64,000 nucleotides of DNA from Alkalicoccus chagannorensis DSM 18086 (GTDB lineage: Bacteria; Bacillota; Bacilli; Bacillales; Salisediminibacteriaceae): the NCBI RefSeq assembly GCF_000429725.1, contig NZ_KE386944.1:62001-126000 (forward strand), written 5' to 3'. This document shows, piece by piece, positions 7,754-49,003 of the stretch; the first letter of the stretch is position 1; each line of letters starts with the position of its first letter. Position numbers and translations under genes: made by a program. The notes below the pieces were generated by a model. It was not told the origin of the DNA. It saw only the letters and a program-made list of their open reading frames with translations, and did not search any database.

Positions 7754-7917
7754 GTCTTTCTGCCGTCATTCATCGTCCAGAGCACAACGCTCTGCTGGCG
7801 GAAGCACCTTGCCGGGGGCAGGCTGCTGTGGAGTCATCAAGCCAGATCTCTCGTCCACTCAGGATAAATGTATGCTGTTGTTCGTGAGTATACGCTCTTT
7901 GGCTCCTGCTGTCCAGT

Positions 7918-43076: not shown

Positions 43077-43394
43077 ATGGACATCCCGGGAGCGGTCGAT
43101 CAACAAACGCGCTGCCGCCATTACCACGGGCCGACCGATGTGATCGCCTTAAAGTGCGGTTGCTGCAGCGTGTATTATCCGTGTGTTTCGTGCCATCTGG
43201 AGAGGACCGGCAGGCCTTTTCAGCGGCGCCGTCTCTCCGATCCCTCCCCGGCCGTGCTGTGCGGGGTGTGCGGAGAGGAAATGAGCGCTGCTGCCTATTT
43301 GAACGCCGGAAACGCCTGTCCATCCTGCCGTGCCGGTTTTAACCCCGGCTGTGCAGCCCACTACCACCTGTATTTTGAAATGGAGGAATCTTAA
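43077..43394 (+). CDS. CHY zinc finger protein
   Basis: A 105-residue protein with the CHY zinc finger: RCRHYHGPTD, ALKCGCCSVYYPCVSCH, VLCGVCGEEM and NACPSCRAGFNPGCAAHYHLYF supply nine Cys and several His for three zinc sites. Single-domain CHY proteins are common in Bacillaceae; in eukaryotes the domain sits in ubiquitin ligases, but no such role is implied here. Its stop codon abuts the ATG of the binding protein gene (TAAATG), so it is the first gene of the 43-48 kb operon. AGAGGGGGAAAC precedes the ATG at 43077. Confidence 0.88.
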   Translation: MDIPGAVDQQTRCRHYHGPTDVIALKCGCCSVYYPCVSCHLERTGRPFQRRRLSDPSPAVLCGVCGEEMSAAAYLNAGNACPSCRAGFNPGCAAHYHLYFEMEES

Positions 43395-44597
43395 ATGAAA
43401 CGATACGTACCCCTGCCTCTGCTCCTGGCTGCTGCCGCCTGTGCGGATGGCGAAGGCGGAGCCGAAGACGCAGACACCCTCTCGGAAGCACCTTGGGAGG
43501 AAATCGAAGAAGCCGCTTCCGGAGCGGAGATCAGCATGTACATGTGGGGCGGGGACGAAGGCATTAACGCCTACATGGATGAGGTGGTCGCCCCGCACCT
43601 GGAAGAAGAATATGACATCACGTTCAGCCGGCAGCCGATGGATGCACCGGAGTTTCTGTCCCGTCTGATGACCGAGCGGGAAGCAGACAGCATGGACGGA
43701 TCCGGAGATATCCTCTGGATCAACGGGGAAAACTTCCGGACGGCGAAAGAAAACGAGCTCCTCTACGGCTCATTTGCGGATATGCTGCCGAACATGGACT
43801 ACATCAACGAGGAAGCACCGTATGTTGAAAACGACATGGGGACAGCAGTGGAAGGCATGCAGGTGCCATGGGGGAACGTCCAGTATGCCTTCCAGTTCCA
43901 AGGGGCGGAGGACCCGCCGGAGACGATGGAAGAGCTGCTCGACTGGGCAGAAGAAAATCCCGGCAGTATGACGTACCCGGATGTTTCCAACGACACAGGA
44001 AACGGCTTCGTGAGGCATATTCTCCACCATGTGGCGGAGAGCCCGGAGGACCTCGCAGAATACGATGAAGCCTGGCTTGAAGAGAACGGAGATGACGTGT
44101 GGGAGACGCTGCGGGAGCTGGCGCCTCACTTGTGGCGGGAAGGAGAGACGTACCCGGATTCTCTCTCCCAGCAGGATCAGCTGTTTGCAGACGGGGAAGT
44201 GTCTATGACGCTCGGCTTTAACGAGCACCGTGCCGAGAGCCTGATTGAACAGGGGACTTTTCCGGAGGACACCGAGACAATCGGCCTTACCTCCGGCTCG
44301 ATCAGCAGCGTCCATTATTTGAGCATGCCCTTTAATACGACAGAACCGGAGGCAGCGCTGGTAGCGATCAACTACATGCTCTCACCGGAAGCACAGATTG
44401 CGAAGCTGGAGCCTTCCCGCTGGGGGGAAGGTCATATTCTTGACCTGGATGCAGTGAGCAGCGGAGAGCGTGACGAGATCGAGGCGATGGTAGGGGAAGA
44501 AGTCGTGCCGCAGGAGGACGCCCTGCCGGAGCTGGATGCCCGCTATGTCGACTGGATTCAGGATAACTGGGAGCAGGAAGTTGTCCAGCAGCGTTAA
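43395..44597 (+). CDS. YnjB-like ABC transporter substrate-binding lipoprotein
   Basis: A 400-residue exported lipoprotein: signal peptide with lipobox AAAAC (Cys16), then an acidic linker. The mature part follows E. coli YnjB: INGENFRTAKENELLYGSF, VPWGNVQYAFQFQGAEDPP, MEELLDWAEENPGSMTYPD, GFVRHIL, GEVSMTLGFNEHRAESLI and AINYMLSPEAQIAKLEPSRW. YnjBCD is an ABC system of unknown substrate. The ATG abuts the stop of the CHY gene, and the permease start overlaps its end. Strongly acidic, as other exported proteins here. Confidence 0.88.
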   Translation: MKRYVPLPLLLAAAACADGEGGAEDADTLSEAPWEEIEEAASGAEISMYMWGGDEGINAYMDEVVAPHLEEEYDITFSRQPMDAPEFLSRLMTEREADSMDGSGDILWINGENFRTAKENELLYGSFADMLPNMDYINEEAPYVENDMGTAVEGMQVPWGNVQYAFQFQGAEDPPETMEELLDWAEENPGSMTYPDVSNDTGNGFVRHILHHVAESPEDLAEYDEAWLEENGDDVWETLRELAPHLWREGETYPDSLSQQDQLFADGEVSMTLGFNEHRAESLIEQGTFPEDTETIGLTSGSISSVHYLSMPFNTTEPEAALVAINYMLSPEAQIAKLEPSRWGEGHILDLDAVSSGERDEIEAMVGEEVVPQEDALPELDARYVDWIQDNWEQEVVQQR

Positions 44598-45423
44598 GTC
44601 GTGGCTGCTGCTCCTGCCGCTGCTCGTGTTCATGATTCTCTTTGTCGGGCAGGGCATGTTCCGTGCCTTTCAGGAGAGTCTCGATGTCGGCGGCAGCAGC
44701 GGCATCTTCGCCAATTACGAGGCGCTTGCCGCGGATGGCACATTCCATGCCGCGCTCGGCGTCAGTGTGTATGTCGCTTTCGTCTCGACGATGCTGTCCC
44801 TGCTGCTCGGCCTGCTCGTGACGAGAACGCTCACTTCCTGGATGAAGAGCGATACATGGAAGCTCGGCGCCTGGTTTCCGATGCTCATCCCCCATTTCGT
44901 GGGAGCCTACCTCATCCTGCTGTTTTTCGCGCCGACCGGATGGTTTGCGTCTGCAGCAGCTTCTGCCGGTCTTGGCTTTCCCGTGATGGTCCAGGATACG
45001 GCCTATATCGGCGTCATCCTGACGTACGTCTGGAAGGAAATCCCGTTCGTTGTGCTGATGCTGCTGCCGGTGTACCAGGAGATGGACGGCCGCATGCAGG
45101 AAGTCAGCAGAAGCCTCGGGGCAGGCAGGTGGACCGGCTTCCGCTTCACCGAATGGCCGTGGGTGCGGCCGGTACTGCTGGAAACCGGGCTGATTTTGTT
45201 CGTGTTCGTCATCGGAGCCTTTGAAGTACCGGCTCTGCTCGGTGTCACGTACCCATCCATGGTGCCGGTGCTCGCGTTTGACTGGTTCTATCAGTCCGGA
45301 TGGAGCACCCGGCCGCTCGCCCAGGCGATGATGGTGCTGCTCATGCTCGGGTCGATCCTGCTTGCGCTGCTGCTGCTCACCACCGCCTACCGCTGGCGGG
45401 AAAGGGGGCGGTCGCATGCGTAG
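44581..45423 (+). CDS. ABC transporter permease 1 (N-terminal half of YnjC)
   Basis: A membrane permease of about 280 residues with six segments and the EAA-like loop EVSRSLGAGRWTGFRFTEWP. In E. coli YnjC both permease halves are one protein; here they are two genes. The start is uncertain: TTG at 44581 (in the end of the binding protein gene, AGCAGGAAG just before) puts the first membrane segment SWLLLLPLLVFMILF at the N-terminus; an ATG at 44545 is the other choice. Its stop overlaps the start of permease 2 by 8 bases. Confidence 0.85.
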   Translation: MSSSVKSWLLLLPLLVFMILFVGQGMFRAFQESLDVGGSSGIFANYEALAADGTFHAALGVSVYVAFVSTMLSLLLGLLVTRTLTSWMKSDTWKLGAWFPMLIPHFVGAYLILLFFAPTGWFASAAASAGLGFPVMVQDTAYIGVILTYVWKEIPFVVLMLLPVYQEMDGRMQEVSRSLGAGRWTGFRFTEWPWVRPVLLETGLILFVFVIGAFEVPALLGVTYPSMVPVLAFDWFYQSGWSTRPLAQAMMVLLMLGSILLALLLLTTAYRWRERGRSHA

Positions 45424-46198
45424 CATCCTCGGCTGGAGCATGCTCCTGCTCGTGTTCGTGGTGCCGGTCCTGTTCCTTTTTCTCCGCAGCATCACCTTCG
45501 GCTGGCGCTATCCGGACCTCTTTCCTTCCGACTGGAGCATGCGGGCCTGGCATGTCATCGCGGGAGATCCCCAGATCCTGCAGGCACTGCTGACAACGAT
45601 GCTCGTCGGCATCACCGTCGTTGCCTTGAACCTGCTGCTCGGCATCCCGGCAGCCTATGCGCTCAGCCACGGCCGGCTGAAAGGCGTCGTCTGGCTGGAG
45701 ACGATTCTGTTTCTGCCGATTCTGGTGCCCGTCCTCGCGATCGCCATGGGGCTGCACATCACGATGATCCGTTTAGGCCTGGCGGATCACATCAGCGGGG
45801 TCATCCTGATTCATCTGCTGCCGACGCTGCCGTACACCATCCGGGTGCTCCGCTCCGGATTCGACCGGATTGCCCCCGGCTGGCGCCGGCTCGGGGACAC
45901 CCTCGGAGCGCCGCGGATAACGCTGTTTGTCACCGGCCTGCTCCCGATGATGCGCCCGAGCCTCCGCAGCGCGGCTGTGCTCGCCTTCGTCATTTCCTTG
46001 AGTCAGTACGTCCTCACCGCGATCATCGGCGGCGGTCAGGTCACCACGCTCCCGCTTTTATACTACCCGTTCTTTGACAGTGCCGATCAGGCTGTCATCG
46101 CCGGATTTTCCGTCGTCTTTGCAGCACTGCCGGCCGTCTTTCTCCTGCTGTGGGAAAGCCTCATGGCCGGCTTCACCTACCTGCTCAGGCGCACATAG
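45416..46198 (+). CDS. ABC transporter permease 2 (C-terminal half of YnjC)
   Basis: A 260-residue permease with six membrane segments; the coupling loop reads RRLGDTLGAPRITLFVTGLLP. AAAGGGGGCGG precedes the ATG at 45416, which lies inside the end of permease 1. With permease 1 it should form the heterodimeric channel. LSQYVLTAIIGGGQVTTLPLL resembles the matching part of ThiP/YnjC-type permeases. 14 bases separate it from the ATPase gene. Confidence 0.88.
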   Translation: MRSILGWSMLLLVFVVPVLFLFLRSITFGWRYPDLFPSDWSMRAWHVIAGDPQILQALLTTMLVGITVVALNLLLGIPAAYALSHGRLKGVVWLETILFLPILVPVLAIAMGLHITMIRLGLADHISGVILIHLLPTLPYTIRVLRSGFDRIAPGWRRLGDTLGAPRITLFVTGLLPMMRPSLRSAAVLAFVISLSQYVLTAIIGGGQVTTLPLLYYPFFDSADQAVIAGFSVVFAALPAVFLLLWESLMAGFTYLLRRT

Positions 46199-46212
46199 AA
46201 AGGAGACCGCCC

Positions 46213-47145
46213 ATGCTTACCATTCATCAGGCAGAAAAACAATTTGATCAGCTCCCCGTGTTCCGCGGCGTCTCCTTCACGGTGAAGGCGGGGGAGACAG
46301 CGAGTCTTGTCGGTCCTTCGGGGTGCGGGAAGACGACCCTGCTCCGGACGATCGCCGGACTGGAACGGCTGAGCAGCGGGACGATGCAGCTGCACGGCAG
46401 GGACATGACGTCCGTACCGCCGGAGAAGAGGCCCGTCGTCCTGCTCTTTCAGGATGCGCTTCTCTTCCCCCATTTGACGGTGCTGGAGAACGTCCTCTAC
46501 GGACTGAAGTACGGCAAACGCCGGCTCAGCCGGAAAAAAAGAAACGAAGAAGCTGAGACGATGCTGGCTAAAGTAGAGATGACCGGCTGGAAAGACCATT
46601 ATCCAGCCCAGCTCTCCGGCGGCCAGCAGCAGCGGGTTTCGCTTGCGAGAGCGCTGCTGCTGCAGCCGGAACTGCTGCTTCTCGACGAACCATTTTCGAG
46701 CCTCGATGCCCACCTGCGCCAGCAGCTGCGCCTCTGGGTCCGCCGGTTTTTGAAGCAGGAGGGCGTGACCGCTCTCTTCGTCACGCACGACAGAGAAGAA
46801 GCGGTCATGATGGGGGACCACCTTCTCGTCATGAAAGACGGCCTCCTGCAGCAGGAAGGCGCGCCGGAGGACGTCTATACAGCTCCTGTCAACGAAGCCG
46901 TCGCAGACGTCATCAGCGATGGGCTCTACTGCGAAGAGGGCTTTATCGGGGCAGATCGTCTGCAGGTAGATCCGGAAGGAGAGCTGGAGGCTGTCGTGGA
47001 GCACGCGCTGTATGCGTATGGATGGCGCTTTTACCGGCTGACGGTGCACACCCTTTCCCAGACCGTGGTTGTGCATACAGAGGAGGAGCTGACCGAGGGG
47101 ACTTCTGTAAAGCTGTCGGTAAAGGAGGTGCCGGAGCATGATTGA
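46213..47145 (+). CDS. ABC transporter ATP-binding protein (YnjD/PotA-like)
   Basis: A 310-residue ATPase: Walker A GPSGCGKTTLL, Q-loop LLFQDALLFPH, signature LSGGQQQRVSLARALL, Walker B LLLLDEPFSSLD, H-loop THDREEAV. Beyond the YnjD-like core (E. coli YnjD is about 217 residues) it has a C-terminal beta-rich part of about 90 residues (IGADRLQVDPEGELE ... TLSQTVVVHTEEEL), likely a TOBE-type regulatory domain. AGGAGACC precedes the ATG. Its stop overlaps the start of the phosphatidyltransferase gene by 8 bases, so production of the two is coupled. Confidence 0.92.
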   Translation: MLTIHQAEKQFDQLPVFRGVSFTVKAGETASLVGPSGCGKTTLLRTIAGLERLSSGTMQLHGRDMTSVPPEKRPVVLLFQDALLFPHLTVLENVLYGLKYGKRRLSRKKRNEEAETMLAKVEMTGWKDHYPAQLSGGQQQRVSLARALLLQPELLLLDEPFSSLDAHLRQQLRLWVRRFLKQEGVTALFVTHDREEAVMMGDHLLVMKDGLLQQEGAPEDVYTAPVNEAVADVISDGLYCEEGFIGADRLQVDPEGELEAVVEHALYAYGWRFYRLTVHTLSQTVVVHTEEELTEGTSVKLSVKEVPEHD

Positions 47146-47719
47146 TACGAAGGCGCGCCGCTACGTGCAGCCGGTAATCGAAACGACAGCTGGAGGTGCC
47201 TTGCGGCTCGGGCTGACGCCGAATCAAGTGACGGTGGCTGGTTTTCTCGTCGGTATCGGAGCGGCGGTCAGCGTCTATGCAGGTGTCTACTGGCTTGGAC
47301 TGGTGCTGCTCTGGGTGTCTGGCTTTGTGGACGCGGTCGATGGTACGATGGCAAGGCAGACGAAGAGCTCCAAGTTTGGAACGGTGCTGGATATCAGCTT
47401 TGACCGGCTGGTCGAGTTCGGCATCATTTTTGCGCTCGCACTCCGGTTTCCGGATGTGATGTGGGCGCTGCTGCTGCTGACGGGGACGATCCTGTACACG
47501 TTCTCGATATTTATCAGTGTCGGGGCGGTGGCGGATGAGGAGGCGGAAAAATCGTTCTACTATCAGCCGGCGCTTGCCGAACGGACGGAAGGGTTCATTC
47601 TTTTGTCGCTCATGATTCTGTTCACGGATTATCTGCTGTACATGGCGCTGTTGTTTATTGCCGTTCAGCTCATCACAGCGGTGCAGCGCCTCTATCTGGC
47701 GCGCCGGATGCTCGATTAG
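47138..47719 (+). CDS. CDP-alcohol phosphatidyltransferase family protein (YnjF-like)
   Basis: A 193-residue inner-membrane enzyme with six predicted segments. The catalytic motif DAVDGTMAR, seven residues, GTVLDISFD supplies the four Asp and the Arg; the spacing between AR and G is seven, where PgsA-type enzymes have eight. Such enzymes join a CDP-linked lipid and an alcohol. E. coli YnjF, of the same superfamily, is coded next to ynjBCD, so this synteny is shared across phyla. The start ATG lies in the end of the ATPase gene. The acceptor alcohol is unknown; the importer may supply it (inference). Confidence 0.87.
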   Translation: MIDTKARRYVQPVIETTAGGALRLGLTPNQVTVAGFLVGIGAAVSVYAGVYWLGLVLLWVSGFVDAVDGTMARQTKSSKFGTVLDISFDRLVEFGIIFALALRFPDVMWALLLLTGTILYTFSIFISVGAVADEEAEKSFYYQPALAERTEGFILLSLMILFTDYLLYMALLFIAVQLITAVQRLYLARRMLD

Positions 47720-47734
47720 AAGAGGAGGATGTTG

Positions 47735-48340
47735 ATGCGAATACTGCTGGCTTCAGCCAACCCGAAAGAAGAGCAGCGCTCCTGTGGGTTGCGGCTCGCT
47801 CAGTTCTTTCAGGAAGAAGTGGCACGGGAACTGCCGGAAACGGTACTGACAATAAGGGACTTGTATGAAGAACCGAGCCCTTTCTTGGGGGGCGACGTTC
47901 TGGATGCTTGGGAGCGGGAGACGGATAAGCCGGTGACGACCGAGGAAGTGGAGCAGCTGCTGGAGCAGGACGTGCTCGTGCTGGTCACTCCCCTCTGGAA
48001 CATGGGAATCCCTGCGGCAGCCAAAGCGTATATAGATCGGCTCATTCTGCCGGAGAAGACGTTTACATTCGGCGATAAGGGGATTGAAGGCTTGATGCAG
48101 AAGCTGACCGTCGTCCATCTCCAGTCGCGCGGCGGCATCTATTCGGAAGGAAAGCTGGCTGCTTTTGAACACGGAGAGAGCTACATGCGGACGATCTGGT
48201 CGCTGACAGGCGTTCAGGACTATCACCACATCGTCGTGGAAGGGACAAGCACGTATCCCGATGAAGTCGACACGCGACTGGCGGCGGCTGAAAAAGAGAT
48301 CCGCGCACTCGTCGCCTCGTGGAAAGCAGAGAATGGATAA
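47735..48340 (+). CDS. FMN-dependent NADH-azoreductase/quinone reductase family protein
   Basis: A 201-residue flavodoxin-like oxidoreductase. The N-terminal strand and FMN phosphate loop region read ILLASANPKEEQRSCG, followed by LVLVTPLWNMGIPAAAKAYID, the hallmark of AzoR-type enzymes, and a VVHLQSRGGIY strand at the isoalloxazine side. Such enzymes reduce quinones or azo compounds with NAD(P)H. Of two ATGs (47729, 47735) the second has correct spacing from AGAGGAGG. It follows the phosphatidyltransferase by 15 bases and ends the operon. What it does for the transport system is not clear. Confidence 0.88.
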   Translation: MRILLASANPKEEQRSCGLRLAQFFQEEVARELPETVLTIRDLYEEPSPFLGGDVLDAWERETDKPVTTEEVEQLLEQDVLVLVTPLWNMGIPAAAKAYIDRLILPEKTFTFGDKGIEGLMQKLTVVHLQSRGGIYSEGKLAAFEHGESYMRTIWSLTGVQDYHHIVVEGTSTYPDEVDTRLAAAEKEIRALVASWKAENG

Positions 48341-48348
48341 CGAAGGAC

Positions 48349-48391
48349 AGCCCGAAGCAGCCGGAAGACGGCCCTGCTCCGGGCTTTTTTG
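48349..48391 (+). terminator. Terminator of the Ynj-like operon
   Basis: AGCCCG-A-AGCAG, 13-base loop, CTGCT-C-CGGGCT, then TTTTTTG, ten bases past the azoreductase stop. Confidence 0.88.
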
Positions 48392-48496
48392 TTATCAGTT
48401 TTTTCCTTCGAGAGGGCGCTGTGTCCGACCACGGGAAGGCGGACGTGTTCCGTGCGGTTGAACTTCTGCGGTCCTCCTGCAGGGCCGGACATCGCG

Positions 48497-48723
48497 GCTC
48501 AAAATCCGGGCGAAGCGTCGGCATTGAGGCGCAAAGCGTCCCAAAGCCGTCGCGAGGTGGCTCAAAAACAGCGGCGTGGCTCAAAAATGTCGGGAGGCGA
48601 CCCGCATGCATCGTCAGGCCGCCCGCTCGGCAGGCCGAGGCGACTCAAACGTTGGCCGAAGCGACCCGCTTTTGAACCAAGCACGGAAAAAAGCTCGATG
48701 AGTTGGTTTCCGCCGGCTGGCGT
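48497..48723. repeat. Class C repeat, tandem copy 1
   Basis: From GCTCAAAATCCGGGCGAAGC to GGTTTCCGCCGGCTGGCGT. The next copy begins 280 bases later (48777) and differs at few positions. Inside, GTGGCTCAAAAA-type motifs recur at 19-21-base steps; on the minus strand this reads TTTTTGAGCCAC and would code short units starting Phe-Glu-Pro. No ribosome site or start context is seen, so I do not call a protein. Confidence 0.9.
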
Positions 48724-48776
48724 GGCAGCCGGGGGCTGGAAGTAGTGAGGTGGATGAAGGGCTGGTGTTCCGTGTG

Positions 48777-49003
48777 GTTCAAAACCCGGGCGAAGCGTCG
48801 GCATTGAGGCGCAAAGCGTCCCAAAGCCGTCGCAAGGTGGCTCAAAACCAGCGACGTGGCTCAAAAATGTCGGGAGGCGACCCGCATGCGGCGTCAGGCC
48901 GCCCGCTCGGCTGGCCGAGGCGACTCAAACGTTGGCCGAAGCGACCCGCTTTTGAACCAAGCACGGAAAAAAGCTCGATGAGTTGGTTTCCGCCGGCTGG
49001 CGT
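48777..49003. repeat. Class C repeat, tandem copy 2
   Basis: Same 228-bp unit as copy 1, at a 280-bp period, separated by 52 bases of other sequence (GGCAGCCGGGGGCTGG...). Near identity suggests a recent duplication or gene conversion. It lies just past the stop of the AraC-type regulator gene on the minus strand. Confidence 0.9.

Follow-up and report, generated by a model that had tools for sequence, protein, structure and literature searches.

Described systems already pair an importer with a lipid-forming transferase: in the Pcs pathway, an ATP-binding cassette (ABC) importer supplies choline, and phosphatidylcholine synthase, a cytidine diphosphate (CDP)-alcohol transferase, joins this imported alcohol to CDP-diacylglycerol. 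Here we analyse a seven-gene operon of Alkalicoccus chagannorensis DSM 18086 that combines an importer of the YnjBCD type with YnjF, a predicted CDP-alcohol phosphatidyltransferase. The operon occupies positions 43077-48340 of the 64,000-nucleotide stretch that was analysed (contig NZ_KE386944.1, positions 62,001 to 126,000 of the forward strand; hereafter, the window). It differs from the Pcs pathway in its importer family, in its transferase subfamily and in the TVP38 and flavoprotein partners that are frequent among its relatives. Literature searches on these genes and families surfaced no functional study of the YnjBCD-YnjF pair.

Homologues of YnjB, YnjC, YnjD and YnjF are encoded in the ydjXYZ-ynjABCD/ynjE/ynjF region of E. 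coli. Identity to the E. coli proteins is 34% over 364 amino acids (aa) for YnjB, 38% over 199 aa for YnjD and 28% over 191 aa for YnjF (E=1e-16). E. coli YnjC is a single 511-aa protein whose residues 38-229 are matched by YnjC1 and 354-462 by YnjC2, so that the permease is indeed split in two in the window, as an earlier note on this DNA had described. Two permease genes are usual in our Bacillota maps, and one fused gene in those of Pseudomonadota. The same note had placed E. coli ynjB-ynjC-ynjD with ynjF: the vicinity is right, but there is no shared operon, as ynjF lies past ynjE on the opposite strand, in convergent orientation. The E. coli region also has TVP38-type YdjX and YdjZ in the cluster, whereas the window operon is without TVP38, YnjE and YnjA and has genes for a CHY zinc-finger protein and an AzoR-like flavoprotein that the E. 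coli region lacks.

YnjB and YnjF are inherited together in three phyla. We searched draws of 299 Bacillota (the phylum of the window, recognised by loci identical to Peribacillus and Chryseomicrobium contigs), 299 Pseudomonadota (the phylum of Limimaricola) and 174 Spirochaetota genomes (the phylum of a Spirochaetales metagenome-assembled genome, MAG) with NF008633, counting as YnjB the proteins over its cut-off, and with a YnjF alignment of 31 rows (A3). Among the Bacillota, 26 genomes carry YnjB, 20 a YnjF-type protein and 18 both, with 1.7 expected; the corresponding numbers are 31, 35 and 29 (3.6 expected) in Pseudomonadota and 5, 9 and 5 in Spirochaetota. Fisher tests, which ignore kinship among the genomes, give p=8e-21, 4e-32 and 1e-7, respectively, and still p=9e-20, 3e-31 and 2e-6 when the previously known carriers (G000, G299 and G301) are removed. 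In each draw a gap separates YnjF scores from all others (at least 157 bits and then 86 in Bacillota, at least 118 and then 77 in Pseudomonadota, at least 133 and then 79 in Spirochaetota), which argues for YnjF as a bounded subfamily.

The two genes are often neighbours, and their association extends to genomes in which they are not. They lie within 6 kb of each other in 17 of the 18 Bacillota genomes with both (in the other, G265, they are on two contigs) and in 21 of the 29 Pseudomonadota genomes. When these 21 are removed, both genes are found together in 8 of the remaining 278 genomes, with 10 YnjB and 14 YnjF carriers (p=1.6e-10, or 2.6e-9 without G299). At the linked Pseudomonadota loci, ynjF directly follows ynjD on one strand in 14, directly precedes ynjB in 3 and is convergent as in E. 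coli in 4. The earlier note had named a neighbourhood survey as the test of its proposed link and had described that link as kept across distant phyla; co-occurrence is far above chance in Bacillota, Pseudomonadota and Spirochaetota, adjacency is the rule in the first two of these, and in Pseudomonadota the excess persists among unlinked genomes. Some loci show apparent decay: in G060 (L064), pieces of ynjB with stop codons lie beside a truncated ynjF, and G239 (L269) has a cut, 130-aa ynjF remnant and no ynjB.

The best single reading of this link, to which we assign a probability of roughly 45%, is that YnjBCD imports a head-group precursor for YnjF. YnjBCD would be an ABC importer of a small, water-soluble, hydroxylated compound (sugar-, polyol- or nucleoside-derived), and YnjF would join that compound, or its phosphate ester, to the phosphatidyl group of CDP-diacylglycerol, yielding a phospholipid with an unusual head group. 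Both the identity of YnjF's acceptor with YnjBCD's cargo and the choice of donor are what we infer here, as is the acceptor's chemical class. The pathway may also involve, in many lineages, a TVP38/DedA protein and a flavoprotein of the MerA-like NAD(P)H type, with lipid movement and reduction as guesses at their roles; in the window's genus, the AzoR-type flavoprotein and the CHY zinc-finger protein would occupy the place of these partners.

The catalytic signature of YnjF is complete (D65xxD68G69xxA72R73...G81xxxD85xxxD89), identifying it by motif as a class I CDP-alcohol phosphotransferase. D65, D68, G69, A72, R73, D85 and D89 are kept in all 61 distinct rows, the window's included, and G81 in 63 of 63; the full signature is invariant in A3. 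An AlphaFold 2 (AF2) model (pLDDT 88.6) has seven helices of at least 13 residues, of which the first probably runs along the membrane and the other six cross it. According to the account of RsPIPS in PMC4634129, a six-helix architecture appears to accompany soluble acceptors.

The nearest solved relatives of YnjF are the phosphatidylinositol phosphate (PIP) synthases and DIPP synthase, with which it shares fold and catalytic signature. Its best sequence match in the PDB is DIPP synthase 4mnd (E=1.2e-17), followed by PIP synthases of M. tuberculosis, Renibacterium and others. As the substrates and product of DIPP synthase are described as soluble in PMC4634129, this match is compatible with YnjF making not a lipid but a small soluble phosphodiester, much as DIPP synthase makes an osmolyte, by joining an imported acceptor to a CDP-activated polyol. 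We consider this very improbable: PIP synthases rank first by fold (the 18 PDB chains at E<0.001 are all PIP synthases, AF2299 or IPCT-DIPPS), the common neighbours of ynjB include none that we recognise as a polyol-phosphate cytidylyltransferase, and a CofC-like TIGR04282 cluster found there shares none of 129 mapped loci with YnjF. Likewise, neither the 193-aa YnjF nor any of the seven operon genes, to which this search was confined, contains an inositol-phosphate cytidylyltransferase domain.

The acceptor-site residues of YnjF resemble those of PIP synthases only in part. In the accounts of PMC4634129 and PMC6506517, M. tuberculosis PgsA1 is said to bind the phosphate of inositol phosphate through R155 and R195, R155 being one of two arginines described as invariant among PIP synthases; R94 is shared by enzymes using inositol phosphate, and R152 lines the pocket. 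In the window's YnjF, R184 and R149 are the equivalents of R195 and R152, and the R155 position is Gly. Where Bacillota YnjF has R90 and R149, E. coli YnjF has F and G. The R195 equivalent is kept in all 61 rows. All 26 Bacillota proteins (the window's included) keep the equivalents of R94, R152 and R195 and have Gly (25) or Thr (1) at R155, while the 35 others keep R195 alone, with Phe at R94, Gly or Ala at R152 and Thr at R155; both types (R/R and F/G) are present in Spirochaetota. This pattern suggests that the acceptor may be phosphorylated for Bacillota-type YnjF and a free alcohol for the other type.

An inositol head group was considered and rejected. YnjF scores below the NCBIfam cut-offs for PIP synthase (79 versus 170 bits) and archaetidylinositol phosphate synthase (NF040950; 89.6 versus 180 bits), and in the window's protein the PIP synthase residues K135 and S132 are not kept. 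Because the R155 equivalent is replaced by Gly or Thr, YnjF is, by these sequence tests, not a PIP synthase. Inositol-1-phosphate synthase was found in none of 20 carriers with PF07994, a weak result on its own because the control was positive in just 3 of 14 genomes and missed Corynebacterium glutamicum, a species with the enzyme.

The binding protein gives little indication of the compound. YnjB shares its fold, and YnjC/D their architecture, with importers of the PotD/ThiB/AfuA type, but YnjB forms a separate family (NF008633) with 8-18% identity to the solved proteins compared. Foldseek searches with its AF2 model (pLDDT 92.5) are led by AfuA, the Salmonella STM0429 protein and thiamine-, ferric- and polyamine-binding proteins; its VIA list contains many sugar binders with tied scores, and its fold neighbours include sugar-phosphate binders. 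Because scores are tied among many ligand classes, the class of ligand is not readable from the fold. A passage of PMC9397018 relates YnjB by homology to a binding protein of polyamine transport in Streptomyces, and a ynjB deletion is among the mutants of a ciprofloxacin-tolerance screen mentioned in PMC13131330.

The positions of the operon genes are given in Table 1. The earlier note's seven tightly packed genes are all on the plus strand, and they are separated by a few bases, abut or overlap. The CHY gene adjoins ynjB, ynjC1 has a TTG start within ynjB (its copy in the same-genus locus L251 likewise begins LSS), and ynjC2 has an ATG start and overlaps ynjC1 by 8 bases; the 8-base overlap of ynjD and ynjF that the note described is also present. 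YnjB matches NF008633 (= PRK11622) over positions 19-395 of 397, placing it in that family, and is a probable lipoprotein, to judge by eye from a signal that is clearer in the congener. The window's genome has one YnjB and three PF01066 matches.

Table 1. Genes and features of the ynj operon in the window (positions are those of the window).
Predicted product or feature	Position	Strand	Basis
CHY zinc-finger protein, 105 aa	43077..43394	+	PF05495 (zf-CHY) 37.8 bits, cut-off 31.3
YnjB solute-binding protein, 400 aa	43395..44597	+	NF008633 377.7 bits, cut-off 203
YnjC1, first permease	44581..45423	+	BPD_transp_1 28.2 bits
YnjC2, second permease	45416..46198	+	BPD_transp_1 43.1 bits
YnjD ABC ATPase, 310 aa	46213..47145	+	ABC_tran 132.4 bits
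YnjF class I CDP-alcohol phosphatidyltransferase, 193 aa	47138..47719	+	PF01066 41.4 bits
AzoR-like flavodoxin-fold reductase, 203 aa	47729..48340	+	PF02525 (Flavodoxin_2) 131.1 bits
Weak terminator-like stem, then T run	48370..48385	+	Pattern scan

The pattern scan that gave the terminator-like stem found 11 sites in the region, compared with 5.2 expected by shuffling. In the raw sequence, the gap 3' of the operon (48480-48900) contains near-identical repeated stretches, e.g. gcgaagcgtcggcattgaggcgcaaagcgtcccaaagccgtcgc. Elsewhere in the window, there is a SAM riboswitch at 7767-7870 on the minus strand (74.8 bits).

Across relatives, the conserved core is ynjB-C1-C2-D-F, and the window has ynjB, ynjC, ynjD and ynjF together. 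The CHY and AzoR genes fall outside this widely conserved core because they have no matches in 106 other ynjB loci (phmmer, E 1e-4) and were found only within the genus: among 10 further loci of the order, the one that has them is L251 (genome G671), with the same seven genes. The family-mate L252 (G629) instead reads TVP38-B-C1-C2-D-F-SelDN-TVP38-MerA, and comparison of these two loci suggests that the AzoR and CHY genes of the window either replaced other genes locally or were added to the operon, at the level of the genus. At the window locus, to which the search was limited, there is neither a TVP38/DedA protein nor a MerA-like flavoprotein.

Partners of ynjB were counted in a wider set of loci. 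Dereplication of 107 loci gave 99 (80 from named genome contigs, plus the Bacillota draw, the window and E. coli), and the fetched stretch includes YnjF in 49 of these, 38 times on the same strand, and a TVP38/VTT-domain protein in 53. A further 30 Pseudomonadota loci bring the total to 129, short contigs being kept; within 8 kb, cluster models, whose names rest on scans of single members, detect YnjF in 70, TVP38 in 56, a MerA-like protein in 35, rhodanese in 22, a nucleoside hydrolase in 18 (two clusters, 11 and 7), a SelDN-type oxidoreductase in 17, an APH kinase in 16 (counted at 60 bits or more, excluding L183 at 54 bits), and TIGR04282 and TIGR04283 in 9 each. YnjF occurs together with TVP38 in 47 loci (p=2e-9) and with the MerA-like protein in 31 (p=1e-6), kinship again being ignored. 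The conserved module thus often includes a TVP38/DedA protein and a MerA-like flavoprotein, which the earlier note missed because the window locus is without them. In five of the 30 Pseudomonadota loci (L178, L188, L202, L203 and L206), genes for a 717-aa MerA-type protein and a protein of about 300 aa lie immediately 5' of ynjB; in the three that were scanned (L178, L188 and L202), these are a VTT (TVP38)-MerA fusion and DUF547, and the gene further 5' encodes a TonB-dependent receptor in L178 and L202 and ribonucleotide reductase in L188.

After correction for the tree of YnjB, the evidence for these partnerships is weak. A FastTree phylogeny of 128 of the 129 rows shows 19 changes for YnjF and 8 for APH, and the median p of independent-pairs sign tests is never below 0.05: it is 0.125 for YnjF with TVP38 or with MerA at 400 bits or more, 0.25 for YnjF with MerA, 0.5 for YnjF with APH and 0.625 for YnjF with nucleoside hydrolase.

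The prevalence of TVP38, MerA-like, rhodanese and SelDN neighbours is what would be expected if the genes shared a physiological response and no common molecule, with YnjBCD importing a nutrient or cofactor and YnjF and TVP38 adjusting phospholipids in a redox or envelope response. E. coli ydjXYZ-ynjABCD and ynjE are entered in a table of FNR-regulated operons (PMC3688515), and ynjA-ynjB in a BaeR regulon table (PMC2731931). We regard such a shared response as a serious but rather unlikely explanation, as the co-occurrence of YnjB and YnjF is tight even where the genes are unlinked, and other importers occupy the module in some genomes without YnjB.

Other neighbours could indicate that YnjBCD serves sulfur, selenium or molybdopterin metabolism, with YnjF incidental to its cargo. 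In addition to the 22 loci with rhodanese, TusA is near ynjB in 7 of the 129 loci and YeeE/YedE-type sulfur transporters in 9. Molybdopterin was raised as a candidate by a single molybdenum cofactor (Moco) riboswitch, about 430 bases 5' of ynjB in G223 (L005:942-1068) among moeA, mobA, mobB, moaA and moaC. We checked both MoaC co-occurrence and Moco genes near ynjB, and demoted the candidate to a rival: MoaC is present in 25 of the 26 Bacillota genomes with YnjB versus 176 of the 273 others (p=4e-4), but G169 has YnjB and YnjF and no MoaC match, and E. coli Moco biosynthesis proteins match near ynjB/ynjF in just 3 of 139 loci (L035, L043 and L109; DmsA/DmsB matches in L050, L059, L101, L108, L182 and L190 were not counted as Moco biosynthesis). 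Nor did other scans find a Moco riboswitch: the 55 other short ynjB loci yielded nothing but rRNA and tRNA, and 7 long loci a single T-box and a single SAM riboswitch, about 5 kb from ynjB. A role in sulfur, selenium or molybdopterin metabolism is therefore distinctly unlikely. The gene order in L005 (also L035) is moeA-riboswitch-ynjB-C1-C2-D-APH-nucleoside hydrolase-moaA.

Loci without YnjF have neighbours of their own. The APH kinase and YnjF have none of the 129 loci in common (p=1e-6, kinship ignored), and the TIGR04282/TIGR04283 'arsenosugar' glycosyltransferase clusters share 8 loci with APH genes and none with YnjF. Loci L082, L110, L121, L132, L181 and others have ynjBCD without ynjF, together with an APH-type kinase and TIGR04283 and/or TIGR04282. 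A separate YnjB clade without YnjF, from Chloroflexi and Actinomycetota MAGs (L123, L127, L128, L129, L135 and L142), is accompanied by a nucleoside-hydrolase-type protein and by a xylose-isomerase-like TIM-barrel cluster (typed from one member scanned per cluster); L123, L129, L135 and L142 add an ADP-ribosylglycohydrolase-type protein (one member scanned).

If YnjBCD feeds YnjF, an alternative source should often be evident in genomes that have YnjF and no YnjB. In G793, one strand reads F-MerA-like-PTS EIIB-PTS EIIC (ascorbate family)-TVP38-DUF547, the phosphotransferase system (PTS) components scoring below their cut-offs (EIIB, 40.5 versus 138 bits; EIIC, 361 versus 380 bits). In G393, the order is SelDN-TVP38/MerA fusion-small unassigned open reading frame-NupC-F, with the NupC-type nucleoside carrier immediately 5' of F (272 bits, below the cut-off of 442, with its Pfam match over cut-off). 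In G754, the genes after F encode an RbsB-type solute-binding protein, MtnA and MtnK (S-methyl-5-thioribose-1-phosphate isomerase and kinase, both above cut-off), an ABC ATPase and a BPD_transp_2 permease. G793 and G393 weigh most because the rest of the module is present there. In addition, a gene for a BMP-type binding protein is divergent from F in G421, and a major facilitator superfamily gene is two genes from F in G489; the contigs of G771 and G864 end too close to YnjF for neighbours to be judged. YnjF is of the R/R type in G793 and G754, where the importer or kinase should yield a phosphorylated product, and of the F/G type in G393 (three points only).

NupC, methylthioribose salvage and the BMP-type protein beside YnjF, together with the nucleoside-hydrolase clusters near ynjB in 18 of the 129 loci, could be accommodated by a special case of the head-group reading, in which YnjBCD would be a nucleoside importer and YnjF would act on the nucleoside or its ribose part. 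This special case seems to us unlikely: nucleoside hydrolase and YnjF have only 1 of the 129 loci in common, so that the hydrolase evidence belongs to loci without YnjF, and the PTS of G793 points to a different class of compound.

The proposal that the importer supplies YnjF with a head group or its precursor, which the earlier note had made, thus stands in part. It is favoured by the co-inheritance of YnjB and YnjF and, indirectly, by the stand-in transporters, by the position of YnjF in the soluble-acceptor branch and by the search that found no inositol-1-phosphate synthase in the 20 carriers. Several points weigh against it. YnjBCD occurs without YnjF in 59 of the 129 mapped loci, 16 of which have the APH-type kinase; by genome, YnjF is missing from 8 of the 26 Bacillota with YnjB and from 2 of the 31 such Pseudomonadota (G392 and G586), and conversely 6 Pseudomonadota and 4 Spirochaetota have YnjF but not YnjB, as do the 2 Bacillota G060 and G239. 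Of the 10 Pseudomonadota and Spirochaetota genomes that have YnjF without YnjB, 3 show an in-line sugar or nucleoside transporter, a post hoc count with no baseline; no transporter was recognised beside YnjF in G318, G514 and G544, and the three stand-ins do not point to a single compound. In a profile search with the YnjB sequence, the 8 PDB matches are all weak; 4edp and polyamine-binding proteins come first (E 6e-6 to 3e-4) and speak weakly for a cationic ligand. The A3 rows come solely from YnjF near YnjB, with L099, L100 and L105 from the same organisms as the drawn genomes G090, G169 and G268. To these are added the neglect of kinship in the Fisher tests and the poor control of the inositol-1-phosphate synthase search.

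A bolder version of the head-group reading, which we would hold to be a long shot, is a widespread lipid-anchored redox carrier. A redox-active or sugar-like compound (ascorbate-, methylthioribose- or nucleoside-like), imported by YnjBCD or by a PTS, NupC or Rbs-type transporter in its stead, would be joined to CDP-diacylglycerol by YnjF; TVP38 would move the product and the MerA/AzoR-type flavoprotein would keep it reduced, the E. coli version being ydjXZ-ynjBCD-ynjF. If true, this would be an undescribed class of membrane lipid.

New here are the TVP38-flavoprotein module, the occurrence of a kinase and glycosyltransferases at some of the loci that lack YnjF, and the transporters that accompany YnjF in some genomes without YnjB. 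If the acceptor of YnjF is imported, the operon would represent a route of lipid head-group uptake and use that is undescribed as far as literature searches show, and its probable partners would be a DedA-family protein and a flavoprotein. The co-inheritance of YnjB and YnjF in three phyla, including genomes in which their genes are unlinked, makes a joint function of the unassigned ynjBCD and ynjF of E. coli K-12 testable.

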